From Nitrosomonadales bacterium (GTDB taxonomy: Bacteria; Pseudomonadota; Gammaproteobacteria; Burkholderiales; Gallionellaceae): a stretch of 64,000 nt of DNA. The notes beneath the pieces are model-generated. The model saw only the letters and a program-made list of their open reading frames with translations, made no database searches and was not told the DNA's origin. The position numbers were made by a program, and so were the translations under genes. Below, piece after piece: positions 2,491-43,981 of this stretch (its first letter is position 1; each line of letters begins with the position of its first letter). The DNA lies in contig JACRAT010000016.1 in the NCBI GenBank assembly GCA_016234685.1, positions 1 through 64,000 on the forward strand, given 5' to 3'.

Positions 2491-2826
2491 ATGCGAGCCG
2501 TGACCATCATCCTGTTCCTGCTTATCCTGCTATTGCAGTACCCGCTGTGGCTGGGGAAGGGCGGCTGGATGAAGGTTTACGACCTCGGCAAACAGCTCGA
2601 CGTGCAGAAGGCTGAGAATCAGAAAATCCAAGAGCGCAATGCTTTGATGGACGCAGAAGTGCGCGACCTCAAGCAAGGTACCGAAGCGATCGAGGGTTAT
2701 GCCCGCAACAAGATGGGCATGATTAAGCAGGGCGAAGTCTTCTTTCAGATTATCGATACCCCACAGCCCGCGCCCATCCCCGGTGCTGGCACTAGCAAGC
2801 CGGACGCCACTTCCGGTAAGGACTGA
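2491..2826 (+). CDS. ftsB: Cell division protein FtsB
   Basis: Short N-terminal TM segment plus coiled coil, [14 protein letters not shown]; located after eno. Confidence 0.85.
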
Positions 2827-2845
2827 GCCTCTCGGCCCAGCATCC

Positions 2846-4756
2846 ATGCCGAATCCCACCCAAAAAATACTCCGTGAAGTCTTTGGCTACACCGCGTTTC
2901 GCGGCGCGCAGCAGGCCATCGTCGAGCACGTCGTAGCCGGTGGCGATGCGCTGGTGCTGATGCCCACCGGCGGTGGCAAGTCCTTGTGCTATCAGATTCC
3001 GGCTTTGATGCGCGATGGCGTCGGCATCGTGATCTCGCCGCTGATCGCGCTGATGCAGGATCAGGTCGATGCGCTCAAGCAGTTGGGCGTGTCTGCTGCA
3101 TTCCTCAACTCCAGTCTGGATGCGGAAGCCGCCCGTGAGGTGTATCGCCAGATATATCGCGGTGAACTGAAGCTGCTGTATGTCGCGCCGGAGCGGCTGA
3201 TGACGGAGGGGTTTTTAGGGTTGCTGGCCAAACTCAACGAGGCTTCCCCCATCCCAACCCTTCCCCCGGCGGGAGAAGGGCTTAACTTCCCTCTCCCGCC
3301 GGGAGAGGGGCTGAGGGTGAGGGAGTCCTCGGGCATCGCCCTGTTCGCCATCGACGAAGCCCACTGCGTCTCCCAATGGGGGCACGACTTTCGCCCCGAA
3401 TACCGCGCACTCACCGTGTTGTACGAGCGCTTCCCCAACGTGCCGCGCATCGCGCTGACCGCCACGGCGGATGCGCCCACACGGCGCGAGATCGTCGAAC
3501 GGCTGGCGCTGGAGCAGGCGCAGCAGTTCGTCTCCAGCTTCGACCGTCCCAACATCCGCTACCGCGTCACGCTCAAAGATAACGCGCGCAAACAATTGCA
3601 GACCTTCCTCGAAACCGAGCACCCGAGCGATGCTGGCATCGTGTATTGCCTGTCTCGGAAAAAAGTCGAGGAGACGGCGGATTGGCTGAAGGGGCAGGGC
3701 TGGGATGCGTTGCCCTACCACGCCGGACTGGATGTCGCCGTGCGCAACGCCAATCAGCGCCGCTTCCTGCGCGAGGAGGGCGTCATCATGGTCGCCACCG
3801 TTGCCTTCGGCATGGGCATAGACAAGCCCAATGTGCGCTTCGTCGCTCACCTCGATCTGCCCAAAAGCATGGAAGGTTATTATCAGGAGACTGGCCGCGC
3901 CGGGCGCGACGGCTTGCCTGCAAATGCCTGGATGGCCTACGGGCTGGGCGATGTGGTATCGATGCGGCAGATGCTGTTGTCCGGCGACGCGCCCGAAGAG
4001 CGCAAGCGCGTCGAACTGCAAAAGCTCGATGCGCTGCTGGGTTTCTGCGAATCCACCGATTGCCGCCATCAAACCATCCTGCGCTATTTCGGCGAGGAGC
4101 ATCCCGGCGATTGCGGCCAGTGCGACAACTGCCTGACGCCGGTGGATACCTGGGATGCGACCGAGGCTGCGCGCATGGCGCTGTCCTGCGTGTATCGCAC
4201 CGGCCAGCGCTTCGGCGTCTCCCATCTGATCGACGTGCTGCTCGGCAAAGCAACCCCAAAAGTCGAGCAGTTCAACCACCAGCAGCTTTCCACTTTCGGC
4301 ATCGGCAACGGACTTACCCAGCAACAATGGAGCAGCGTGTATCGCCAACTGGTTGCTGCCGGGTTCATCAATGTGGACATGGAGGCCTACGGCGGATTGC
4401 GCCTAGCGGAAGAAGCGCGTCCGGTATTGCGCGGCGAACAGTCGGTCTGGCTGCGCCGCGATGCCGAGCCGGTCAAGCGCCGCAACACTCGCGCCGAACG
4501 TGGTTCGCGTTTGCGCGAAGCTTTTGCCGATGCTCACGAAGAGCCGCTCTGGCAGGCGCTCAAAGCCAAACGCATGGAGTTGGCCCGTGAGCAGGGCGTG
4601 CCGCCTTACGTTATCTTCCACGACAGCACCTTGCTGGAGCTACTCAACCGCCGCCCACAATCGTTCAACGAGATGGCGCAGATCAGCGGCATCGGGCAGG
4701 CCAAGCTGGTGAAGTACGGTGATGCGTTCTTGCAGGTGCTGGCCGAGCAGGCGTAG
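2846..4756 (+). CDS. recQ: ATP-dependent DNA helicase RecQ, with an in-frame repeat-derived insertion before the DEAH motif
   Basis: [40 protein letters not shown]-terminal HRDC-like region. Confidence 0.95.
3243..3330. repeat. Dispersed palindromic repeat (CCCTCTCCC/GGGAGAGGG family) inside recQ
   Basis: cccttcccccggcgggagaaggg...ccctctcccgccgggagaggggctgagggtgaggg; related to copies at 41628-41744 and 43190-43288. Confidence 0.8.
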
Positions 4757-26807: not shown

Positions 26808-26929
26808 CCGTTCGTCCTGAACCCTTCGATAAACTCAGGGGGGCTTGTCGCAGGGCTTGATAGGACATTGATTACTTTTGATTTATTCCACTCATGGTTC
26901 GACAAGCTCACCACGAACGGAATAAATCA
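26808..26929. repeat. Dispersed palindromic repeat (CGTTCGTCCTGA...TTCGACAAGCTCA...ACGAACG family)
   Basis: ccgttcgt (26808-26815) and acgaacgg (26913-26920); nested perfect 11-bp inverted repeat tgatttattcc/ggaataaatca (26879-26889/26919-26929). Confidence 0.75.
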
Positions 26930-39956: not shown

Positions 39957-40301
39957 ATGCAAGCTCTATTCATTGAACTGCCATTCTTTTCCCGATACCG
40001 ACAGGACTATCTGGATGATGACCGCTACCGAGAATTTCAAGAAATGCTGCTGAAAAAGCCAGAGGCTGGTGATGTGATCGAAGGAACGGGCGGGTTGCGA
40101 AAAATCCGTTTCGCCGATGCCAAGAGGGGAAAGGGCAAGCGTGGCGGCCTTCGAGTGATTTACTACTGGTGGCATTCTGGAGAGCCGTTCTGGTTGTATA
40201 CGATCTACAACAAAGATGAAATGGATGACTTGACCTTCGAGCAAAAGAAGATTTTGAAAGACTTGCTCAAGAAAGAGTTAGACGCAAGGAGAACCCAATG
40301 A
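39957..40301 (+). CDS. RelE/HigB-like type II toxin
   Basis: MQALFIELPFFSRYRQDYLDDDRYREFQEMLLKKPEAGDVIEGTGGLRKIRFADAKRGKGKRGGLRVIYYW. Confidence 0.88.
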   Translation: MQALFIELPFFSRYRQDYLDDDRYREFQEMLLKKPEAGDVIEGTGGLRKIRFADAKRGKGKRGGLRVIYYWWHSGEPFWLYTIYNKDEMDDLTFEQKKILKDLLKKELDARRTQ

Positions 40302-40609
40302 AACGAAATTTGTTTGAAGAGTTGGCCGAGGGCTTCGGGGCGCTCGAATCTGCCCGACAAGGCAAACTAACATTACGCCACAGTGTAGTTGAATTGAAAC
40401 CAGCGCCGACAATCACGCCTGATGAGTTGTTGACTTTGCGAGAACGGCTACACATGTCGCGCTCGGTATTCGCAAGGTATTTGCGGACCAATGTTCGTAC
40501 ATTGGAAAACTGGGAGCAAGGCAGAGCTAGCCCGAATGCTCAAGCTGCATTGTTGATTCGGATGGTCGAGAACTACCCAGATACTGTCGAGCGATTATCG
40601 GTGATTTGA
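40298..40609 (+). CDS. HTH (Xre/HigA/NadS-like) antitoxin
   Basis: LTLRERLHMSRSVFARYLRTNVRTLENWEQGRASPN; overlaps the toxin stop. Confidence 0.88.
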   Translation: MKRNLFEELAEGFGALESARQGKLTLRHSVVELKPAPTITPDELLTLRERLHMSRSVFARYLRTNVRTLENWEQGRASPNAQAALLIRMVENYPDTVERLSVI

Positions 40610-41073: not shown

Positions 41074-41112
41074 GTCCAGCGTCCAGCGTCCAGCGTCCAG
41101 CGTCCAGCGTCC
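41074..41112 (+). repeat. Heptamer tandem repeat (GTCCAGC, five copies plus partial)
   Basis: gtccagc at 41074, 41081, 41088, 41095, 41102, then gtcca; fused to a gtaggtcgggtttcaacccg palindrome. Confidence 0.9.
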
Positions 41113-41180: not shown

Positions 41181-41531
41181 ATGGCTGAAGCCGGGCGTGG
41201 TGTAGTGCTGGAAAAGATGTACCGCTTCCAGTTATGGCTCATTCCCGCGCTGGAAAAGTTTCCTCGCAGCCAGCGTTTTTTGCTGGGTGACCGCATTCAG
41301 ACACTGGCTCACGACGTGCTGGAAGGGCTTATCGACGCCACCTACAGCCGTGAACCGTTGCCGGTACTCAATCAGGTCAATCTGCGGCTGGAAAAACTGC
41401 GCTTTGCCTTGCGCCTCGCGCGCGACCTCAACCACCTCGATTTACGCCGTTACGAATTTGCCGCCGAATCACTGCTGGAAATTGGGCGCTTGATCGGCGG
41501 GTGGAGAAAGGCCAGTCATGGCAAAGCTTGA
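41181..41531 (+). CDS. avd: DGR accessory variability determinant (Avd-like four-helix bundle)
   Basis: VLEKMYRFQLWLIPALEKFPRSQRFLLGDRIQTLAHDVLEGLIDATYS...LNQVNLRLEKLRFALRLARDLNHLDLRRYEFAAESLLEIGRLIGGWRKA; immediately 5' of and overlapping the RT. Confidence 0.92.
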   Translation: MAEAGRGVVLEKMYRFQLWLIPALEKFPRSQRFLLGDRIQTLAHDVLEGLIDATYSREPLPVLNQVNLRLEKLRFALRLARDLNHLDLRRYEFAAESLLEIGRLIGGWRKASHGKA

Positions 41532-43311
41532 TAAAACCGTAGCCCGGATGCATCGCAGTGAAATGCGGGGTGAGCGTCGCGCCGTAATTCCGGAATCCGC
41601 TGCGCTACTTTCGGGCTACATGCCCAACGCCCCTCACCCCCAGCCCCTCTCCCGCTTGCGGGAGAGGGGAGCAGTATTGAGCGAGGGAGCAACTACCCTC
41701 TCCCGCAAGCGGGAGAGGGTGGCCGACAGGCCGGGTGAGGGGCGTTCAAACAGCGCTGACACTTTGTTCCCCCACCTCACCGCCTTTCCCCACCTGCTGG
41801 AATCTTTGCAGCGCGCTGCCAGCGGCAAGCGCAACAAGCGCGGTGTGGCGGCTTTTCTTGCCCGGCAGGAAAGTGCGCTCATCCACTTGCGCGACCAACT
41901 CCAGTCCGGCGCATGGCGGGGCGGCGGCTACACCGTGATTGAGATCAGTGACCCCAAGCCACGCCGCATTTCCGCCGCCCCGTTTGCTGACCGGGTGGTG
42001 CATCACGCACTATGCTCTGTCATCGCCCCCATTTTCGAGCGCGGCTTCATCGCCGACAGCTATGCCAACCGCGTGGGATACGGCCAGCATCGCGCCGTGG
42101 CGCGCTACGAACACTACCGCGACCGTTACGCCTACGTCTTGCGCTGCGACATCTACCGCTACTTCCCCTCAATCGACCATCAAATACTCAAGCGCGACTA
42201 TCGCCGCCGCATCACCTGCGAGCGCACCTTGGCGTTGATGGACGTGATCGTCGATGGCAGCAACCCGCAAGAGCCGGTCAACCTCATCTTCCCCGGCGAT
42301 GATCTGCTCACTGCCGCCGAACGCCGTCGCGGCCTGCCGCTGGGCAACCTCACCAGCCAGCTGTTTGGCAACCTGTACCTCAACGGCTTTGACCATTTCG
42401 TGAAAGAAGTCTTGCGCGCGCCCTACCTGCGCTTTGTCGATGACTTCGCCCTGTTCGCCCATGATCGCGCCACCCTCGAACGCTGGCAGGCACAAATCGC
42501 CACCTACCTGGCCGGTCGTAGACTCATCCTGCACCCGCGCAAAACCTTCATCGCTGCCACCGCAGAACCGGCGCAGTTTCTCGGCTATGTGCTGCATCGC
42601 GGTGGGCTACGCACCCTTCCGCCGGAAAACGTCCAACGCTTCTGCGGCAGATTGCAATCCCTGCGCACCCGTTGGAAAAACGGCGAACAAAACGAGTCGG
42701 CCATCCGCCAGCGCATCCAGTCATGGATAGCGCACGCGAGCCACGCCGACACTTGGCGCTTGCGCCAGACCCTCTTTCGTGGCGGGTGGTTTGATCCCGC
42801 CTTATTGAACCGGCAGCCGCTCCAGTTACCCGTTCGTCCTGAGCTTGTCGAAGGGCGGGCGCACCTCGCATCCGCTCATGTTTCGACAAGCTCAACACGA
42901 ACGGTTATGGGATTGATTGCTGATTCAACGGAAGCCTTGCCCACCCGTGCTGCGTGGCGGCTCGTGGAACAACGAACCACAGAACTCGCGCGCGGCGAAT
43001 CGCAACAACAACGACCCTGCGAAACGGAACAACAACAACGGCTTCCGTCTTGCCAGATTGCTCCAACGTCAGAACCGGGTGGCTCATGGGCCATCTGGGC
43101 GCACGAGCGAGCGTTCAGGGTGGGCTGGGAAATGGCAGCACCCGCCGTCCGTTTTGGCCGAGAGGCGACGGACGGCGTTCCCGCTTTACCTCCCTCCCCC
43201 ACCGGGGGAGGGAATGAGGGTGAGGGGCTGTACTCTGGTGCAACGCGCAAACCCTCACCCCCAGCCCCTCTCCCTGTGGGAGAGGGGAGTTTCCCCAGCG
43301 TGCCTACATAG
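41518..43311 (+). CDS. Diversity-generating retroelement reverse transcriptase (N-terminal repeat insertion; C-terminal ORF extension across the TR)
   Basis: LFPHLTAFPHLLESLQRAASGKRNKRGVAAF, RCDIYRYFPSIDH, GLPLGNLTSQLFGNLYLNGFDHFVKE, YLRFVDDFALF, FLGYVLHRGG; SQ in RT motif 4 is typical of DGR RTs. The true C-terminus is uncertain because the core ends near 42810. Confidence 0.93.
   Translation: MAKLDKTVARMHRSEMRGERRAVIPESAALLSGYMPNAPHPQPLSRLRERGAVLSEGATTLSRKRERVADRPGEGRSNSADTLFPHLTAFPHLLESLQRAASGKRNKRGVAAFLARQESALIHLRDQLQSGAWRGGGYTVIEISDPKPRRISAAPFADRVVHHALCSVIAPIFERGFIADSYANRVGYGQHRAVARYEHYRDRYAYVLRCDIYRYFPSIDHQILKRDYRRRITCERTLALMDVIVDGSNPQEPVNLIFPGDDLLTAAERRRGLPLGNLTSQLFGNLYLNGFDHFVKEVLRAPYLRFVDDFALFAHDRATLERWQAQIATYLAGRRLILHPRKTFIAATAEPAQFLGYVLHRGGLRTLPPENVQRFCGRLQSLRTRWKNGEQNESAIRQRIQSWIAHASHADTWRLRQTLFRGGWFDPALLNRQPLQLPVRPELVEGRAHLASAHVSTSSTRTVMGLIADSTEALPTRAAWRLVEQRTTELARGESQQQRPCETEQQQRLPSCQIAPTSEPGGSWAIWAHERAFRVGWEMAAPAVRFGREATDGVPALPPSPTGGGNEGEGLYSGATRKPSPPAPLPVGEGSFPSVPT
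41539..41619. repeat. REP-like paired element (GTAGCCCGGATG...CGGGCTAC) inside the RT 5' end
   Basis: gtagcccggatgcatcgcagtgaaatgcgggg...attccggaatccgctgcgctactttcgggctac. Confidence 0.8.
41628..41744. repeat. Palindromic repeat (CCCTCTCCC family) with inverted ends, inside the RT 5' end
   Basis: Ends cgcccctcaccc / gggtgaggggcg; internal hairpins cccctctcccgc-ttgcgggagagggg and ccctctcccgc-aagcgggagaggg. Confidence 0.9.
42830..42904. repeat. Palindromic repeat (CCGTTCGTCCTGAGCTTGTCGAAGG...TTCGACAAGCTCAACACGAACGG)
   Basis: Inverted ends ccgttcgt/acgaacgg; second copy of the element at 26808-26920. Confidence 0.85.
42946..43057 (+). repeat. DGR template repeat (TR); homology extends to ~43064 as an IMH*-like end
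   Basis: 112-bp colinear alignment to 43858-43969 with 18 mismatches, all at TR adenines; 11 AAY codons in the target frame. Confidence 0.97.
43143..43177 (+). ncRNA. Candidate structured DGR spacer hairpin downstream of the TR
   Basis: Perfect 10-bp inverted arms cgccgtccgt / acggacggcg (43143-43152/43168-43177), 15-nt loop. Confidence 0.4.
43190..43288. repeat. Palindromic repeat (CCCTCTCCC family) between TR and target gene
   Basis: cctcccccaccgggggagg...ccctcacccccagcccctctccctgtgggagagggg; related to 3243-3330 and 41628-41744. Confidence 0.85.
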
Positions 43312-43345
43312 GCGATTAGTTGACTTAACCCAAGGAGAACGAAGC

Positions 43346-43971
<626 letters not shown>

Positions 43972-43981
<10 letters not shown>

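Follow-up and report, generated by a model that had tools for sequence, protein, structure and literature searches.

The DGR locus and its repeats

The window analysed here, 64,000 nucleotides at positions 1 to 64,000 of contig JACRAT010000016.1 (Nitrosomonadales bacterium, Gallionellaceae, assembly GCA_016234685.1), belongs to a metagenome-assembled genome (MAG) of 2.35 Mb that is 88% complete, referred to below as G000. It contains a diversity-generating retroelement (DGR) whose reverse transcriptase (RT) gene carries two short palindromic repeat elements, read in frame, close behind its start codon. The locus comprises avd, whose 3' end overlaps the RT start by 14 nt, the RT open reading frame (ORF) with a conserved core at aa ~83-430, a template repeat (TR) and a target gene with the variable repeat (VR), of which a single copy was found in G000 (Table 1). 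As in a DGR, the RT is of the DGR type with an adjacent Avd, and the mismatches between TR and VR are confined to TR adenines (18/18).

The first element, a pair of repetitive extragenic palindromes (REPs) with the structure GTAG...CTAC in two inverted arms, begins seven codons past the RT ATG. The second, a CCCTCTCCC palindromic element resembling a miniature inverted-repeat transposable element (MITE), has 14-nt perfect inverted ends and two inner 24-nt palindromes. There is no stop codon in the RT frame across both repeats, which encode a stretch that includes the peptide GAVLSEGATTLSR. A sequence-only reading of the window had described a REP-like pair and a palindromic element back to back near the RT N-terminus, with a frame that stays open into the conserved RT start. 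The elements, the frame and the encoded peptide were all as described, and the coordinates agreed within 2 nt.

Insertion of the repeats into the RT gene

The closest relative found, the repeat-free locus L061, comes from a MAG of an uncultured Methylobacillus sp., and its RT is 84% identical to that of the window by tblastn and 81% in the alignment. The order from avd to the target gene is collinear in L061, and the repeats are absent at all three sites where the window carries insertions. The RT leader comprises 83 codons in the window vs 15 in L061, and as this net difference is 204 nt, the RT frame is kept. The start codon, the ATG context, the avd overlap and GGAGAAAGG are identical in L061. 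The sequence-only reading had proposed an alignment to other DGR RTs and a search for repeat-free alleles, and both gave the same picture: besides L061, the other orthologous RTs examined (~35) lack the insert, and their possible starts precede the conserved first motif by ~5-15 codons. Orthologues that lack the repeats but share the N-terminal extension, which in that reading would have spoken against insertion, were looked for among the ~35 and not found. Judged by these alignments, the repeats are real insertions in the RT gene and not ancestral sequence.

Two further insertions in the RT ORF had escaped the sequence-only reading, and they flank the TR. The second holds the inverted pair TTCGTCCTGAGCTTGTCGAA (42833-42852) / TTCGACAAGCTCAACACGAA (42882-42901), a TTCGTCCTGAGC inverted pair; the third contains CCCTCCCCC/CCCTCTCCC palindromes at 43192-43212 and 43266-43286.

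Table 1. Coordinates of the DGR locus, its insertions and a second repeat-bearing gene in the window.
Feature	Position	Strand	Remarks
recQ with in-frame CCCTCTCCC-type insertion	2783-4756	+	palindromes 3258-3279, 3289-3317; TIGR01389 on either side
avd, DGR accessory protein	41181-41531	+	NF033474 E=2.7e-29; bAvd Pfam
GGAGAAAGG, probable ribosome-binding site of RT	41503-41511	+	conserved in L061
DGR reverse transcriptase ORF, 597 aa	41518-43311	+	RVT_1; PHROG 1423; best fold match 8ub7
GTAG-tagged REP pair, inverted orientation, 81 nt = 27 codons, in frame	41539-41619		absent in L061
CCCTCTCCC palindromic MITE-like element, read in frame	41626-41746		begins six bases past the GTAG pair
Second insertion, net +126 nt, frame-preserving	42808-42930 (about)		between RT core and TR
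Template repeat (TR), 104 nt	42949-43052	+	read by the RT ORF in another frame
Third insertion, net +136 nt	43176-43320 (about)		after the post-TR hairpin
DGR target gene, FGE-sulfatase / C-type-lectin-like fold, carries VR	43346-43981	+	PF03781 E=7e-38
Variable repeat (VR)	43861-43964	+	18 mismatches vs TR, all at TR adenines

Activity of the DGR and fold of the RT

The RT core is intact. All invariant columns of the RT alignment are kept, and the ratio of nonsynonymous to synonymous substitution rates (dN/dS) of the core against L061 is 0.062, at a dS near saturation. The TR-to-VR substitutions of L061 lie at adenines without exception (19/19), as do those of the window. These adenine-only changes, together with the low dN/dS of the RT, indicate that the DGR was active in the past and under constraint. 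Moreover, the TRs of the two loci differ at 3/104 positions and each VR follows its own TR there, so at least one lineage has rewritten its VR from the TR since the two diverged. The few TR differences stand beside a strong silent-site divergence of the RT.

An AlphaFold model of the RT has a confident core at aa 81-428, with the DGR RT 8ub7 as its best PDB match. The predicted local confidence (pLDDT) is ~30-40 in the insert vs 80-97 in the core, and it is below 50 both in the insert (14-78) and in the tail (429-597); the RT insert is accordingly modelled as disordered.

The active-site motif of the RT is FVDD (at ~42433, RT aa 306), and most relatives have YVDD. In the window and L061 alike, the RT ORF uses a TR frame other than that of VR. 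The idea that the TR-overlapping C-terminal tail of the RT has a conserved function was not supported, as at a further locus (L032) the TR is read in a different frame. Among viral contigs, only two relatives were found. Just upstream of the DGR lies a pair of genes for a RelE-like toxin and a helix-turn-helix antitoxin (39957-40609), and a CGTCCAG tandem repeat (41074-41112) precedes avd.

In-frame repeats elsewhere in the genome and family

The repeat families of the RT lie in frame in at least 19 genes of G000, in a census that draws on searches and individual stretches and gives lower bounds. Family models match on either side of the repeats in EarP, HsdR, MurC, LysA, AddA, LeuS, RecQ, MutS, an RlmN-like protein, MtnA, GlyS and a YbbP-like permease, and likewise in MetG, AlaRS, HrpA, a MurU-like protein, a DNA methylase, an RlmI-like protein and a MidA-like methyltransferase. 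WaaA, PanB, HypE, NifN and a pteridine reductase were not counted as internal insertions, their repeats being terminal or adding no net length, nor was ThiL (L256), in which only the N-terminal domain was matched. Roughly 33 distinct CCCTCTCCC places were found in G000; ~15 are within genes with matches on both sides, and the remainder are intergenic, terminal or undecided. Insertion in frame into many unrelated protein genes is also the behaviour of the Rickettsia palindromic element (RPE). The essentiality of LeuS, MurC and similar genes is general knowledge, not drawn from this organism.

MutS and LeuS are encoded by single-copy genes in G000, and with their insertions they are under purifying selection (dN/dS 0.10-0.18). 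Two sites in MutS and two in LeuS are occupied by in-frame repeats in at least two genomes of the family and are empty in others. When MutS and MurC were compared with solved structures, the inserts appeared as added residues between aligned segments. Several genera of the family have repeats, not always the same ones, in the same two loops of MutS (query aa ~323-356 and ~402-461; L202-L218), and the same loops of LeuS are likewise hit in several genera. The insertion in RecQ, a second in-frame example in the window, lies within the helicase domain; a further repeat pair, TTCGTCCTGAAC / TTCGACAAGCTCACCACGAA, is found at 26809-26920.

Each of the two elements in the RT has 2/6 frames open vs ~2.7 for shuffled sequence. 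We therefore rejected an intrinsic paucity of stop codons as the reason for the open frame; since the elements are not unusually stop-poor, selection among survivors is the likelier reason for open frames. The RT insert would then be one survivor of a general process, by which repeats come to sit in many essential single-copy proteins, at loops and linkers that are permissive.

Association of the CCCTCTCCC element with DUF559 genes

The element at 41626-41746 has the anatomy of a MITE: its termini are inverted repeats, it carries no gene, and relatives of it occur elsewhere in the genome. A CCCTCTCCC palindrome lies within 220 bp of 31/32 DUF559 loci in the family, the own genome included, and on both sides of 23/32 (L268-L299); phylum-wide, the figures are 25/29 and 18/29 (L300-L328). 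These were the best-scoring DUF559 loci of 60 family genomes and of a phylum-wide sample, so the percentages may fail for weak or fused DUF559 domains. In the family, palindrome density was 5.06/kb within 220 bp of DUF559 vs 0.23/kb at 400-1500 bp, and in the phylum-wide sample it was 4.55/kb vs 0.05/kb further out, with 0 in shuffled sequences in both cases; at MutS and LeuS loci it was about 0.13/kb. The flanking of DUF559 genes by inverted CCCTCTCCC palindromes extends across Pseudomonadota.

Whole units are present or absent at defined sites. In MetG (L253, G000:C18:10290-13774), a complete DUF559 domain, bounded on either side by CCCTCTCCC palindromes, lies in frame between tRNA-synt_1g and tRNA_bind. 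This linker is filled in G000 and its congener G001 (L329), filled at a different position in G018 (L297), and empty in at least five relatives. Similarly, a ~480-bp DUF559 unit lies between two transporter genes in the congeners G001 and G002, and G000 has a clean empty site there. G000 also has a DUF559 gene at C17:19245, and the unit beside it matches the left unit of the RT element at 39/40 positions. From this near-identity, we infer that the CCCTCTCCC element of the RT is a nuclease-less copy of a DUF559 unit. Most likely, it is non-autonomous and related to a unit with hairpin ends that carries the gene for the Vsr-like DUF559 nuclease. Adjacency, shared ends and presence/absence suggest that DUF559 would cut or copy palindromic units, and we hypothesise that it mobilises the CCCTCTCCC units.

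A broader reading starts from a mobile unit with hairpin ends and DUF559 as its sole gene. The CCCTCTCCC palindromes across Pseudomonadota may be its ends and its non-autonomous copies, and the unit would invade protein genes in frame, become fused even inside MetG, and be translated by essential host proteins like an intein without splicing. We offer this tentatively and would give it slightly less than an even chance. A different account, in which the palindromes are terminators, or cleavage or repair substrates that accumulate near a Vsr-like nuclease, and the link has nothing to do with mobility, agrees with the description of the DUF559 protein VsrA of Caulobacter as a Vsr-like repair nuclease (PMC12907096). 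However, it does not readily accommodate the clean sites at which whole units with inverted ends are either found or missing, or units in frame at two different positions of the MetG linker, and we regard it as unlikely, though a serious competitor. No report linking DUF559 to palindromic, mobile or REP elements was found in the literature searched, which covered few subscription papers, and the palindromes flanking DUF559 genes are apparently unreported.

Probable translation of the RT insert and alternative explanations

The sequence-only reading had left open whether the RT tolerates a ~70-aa insertion or is initiated internally. We favour a translated insert, because the ATG at 41518, the avd overlap and GGAGAAAGG are conserved in L061, and because the repeats lying mid-gene elsewhere in G000 are indirect evidence that such elements are translated. 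In this mechanism, the GTAG REP pair and the CCCTCTCCC element would have entered a working RT gene behind codon 7-8, successively or as one unit. The RT would still be made from its original avd-coupled start, the insert having a net length of 204 nt and a phase without stop, and ~68 additional, probably disordered N-terminal residues would hang off the enzyme and leave the folded core undisturbed. Most likely, the insert is translated and tolerated, and we infer that the extended RT is made and active.

Under internal initiation, the repeats would now be a 5' leader and the RT would start at TTG 41764 or at ATG 41620, the latter inside the insert. The TTG stands at a position that is ATG in L061 (the codon before FEQ/FPH), and many N-terminal REPs were judged extragenic on this ground by Di Nocera 2013 (PMC3733652). 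However, neither start is preceded by a recognisable ribosome-binding site, whereas the upstream start, GGAGAAAGG and the avd overlap are conserved and no stop codon has accumulated in the insert. Moreover, internal initiation cannot explain the MutS and LeuS proteins, as there repeats of the same families sit, and are read through, mid-gene in single-copy genes. Internal initiation thus appears improbable.

The repeats might also belong to the decay of a non-working RT, as the three insertions within one 1.8-kb ORF and the replacement of YVDD by FVDD could suggest. We consider this very unlikely, as there is no frameshift or stop, the invariant columns are kept at a dN/dS of 0.06, and TR and VR are consistent with mutagenic retrohoming. 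An assembly artefact that joined unrelated contigs of the MAG at the repeats, which often are assembly break points, can be dismissed almost entirely, since avd, RT, TR and the target gene are collinear with L061 on either side of every insertion and the frame is kept.

Taken together, the best explanation is that the repeats inserted into a working RT and are translated and tolerated, as one survivor of a general process, and that the CCCTCTCCC element is related to the DUF559 unit; we put its probability at about 0.8. Several points weigh against it. L061 is diverged, with dS near saturation, and therefore neither an age for the insertion nor DGR activity later than it can be established. 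No clear target-site duplication was seen at the RT insert, where the flanks are strongly diverged from L061. The GTAG pair consists of GTAG-tagged palindromic units paired in inverted orientation, as in REPs, but G000 holds two exact and a few near matches in 2.35 Mb, about as many as a reversed-pattern control. Neither of the two Y1_Tnp genes found in G000, at 88% completeness, is flanked by GTAG REPs, and we rejected a REP-associated tyrosine transposase (RAYT) as mobiliser of the pair. Because both high copy number and transposase association are lacking, we call the pair REP-like by anatomy and do not assign it to an active REP family. Finally, the role proposed elsewhere for DUF559 is Vsr-like repair (PMC12907096).

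Relation to known systems and significance

In-frame repeats are of a known kind, since intragenic REPs and the Rickettsia RPEs have already been described. Intragenic GTAG/CGTC REPs occur in several bacteria, where their targets include genes for DNA repair and tRNA synthetases (PMC3733652). The repeats studied here share with them the GTAG tag, the inverted pairs and the insertion into ORFs of such genes, at times N-terminally. In contrast to those REPs, CCCTCTCCC, the more frequent of the two elements here, bears neither a GTAG nor a CGTC tag and is paired with DUF559 rather than with a tyrosine transposase, and the targets include a DGR and many essential genes present in single copy. The RPEs are palindromes in frame in genes (Ogata 2000/2002, reviewed in PMC10969869); the likeness drawn here, palindromic repeats in frame in many unrelated protein genes, is one of behaviour. 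The lineage is different here, several repeat families occur together, and one of these has its ends in common with a nuclease gene.

As in REP doublets forming hairpins (REPINs) and their RAYTs, short inverted palindromic units flank a small single-domain enzyme gene and have many enzyme-less copies, but the enzyme here is a PD-(D/E)XK Vsr-like nuclease (DUF559) and not a Y1 HUH transposase. The DGR resembles others (e.g., that of the RT of PDB 8ub7) in its RT, Avd, TR, VR, adenine-specific mutagenesis and FGE-like target protein, and differs from them in the 68-residue repeat-encoded N-terminal insertion and in the long C-terminal tail encoded by repeats and TR. The differences here are that a DGR is among the targets and has an empty allele, that so many essential single-copy genes are hit, and that there is a link to DUF559.

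Proteins as constrained as MutS, a DGR RT and aminoacyl-tRNA synthetases would thus tolerate repeat insertions as translated segments. Empty alleles that occur naturally allow a comparison, and the insertions would mark natural insertion-tolerant sites in these proteins. Additionally, the very common CCCTCTCCC palindromes gain in DUF559 a candidate mobilising enzyme, which makes their origin directly testable.
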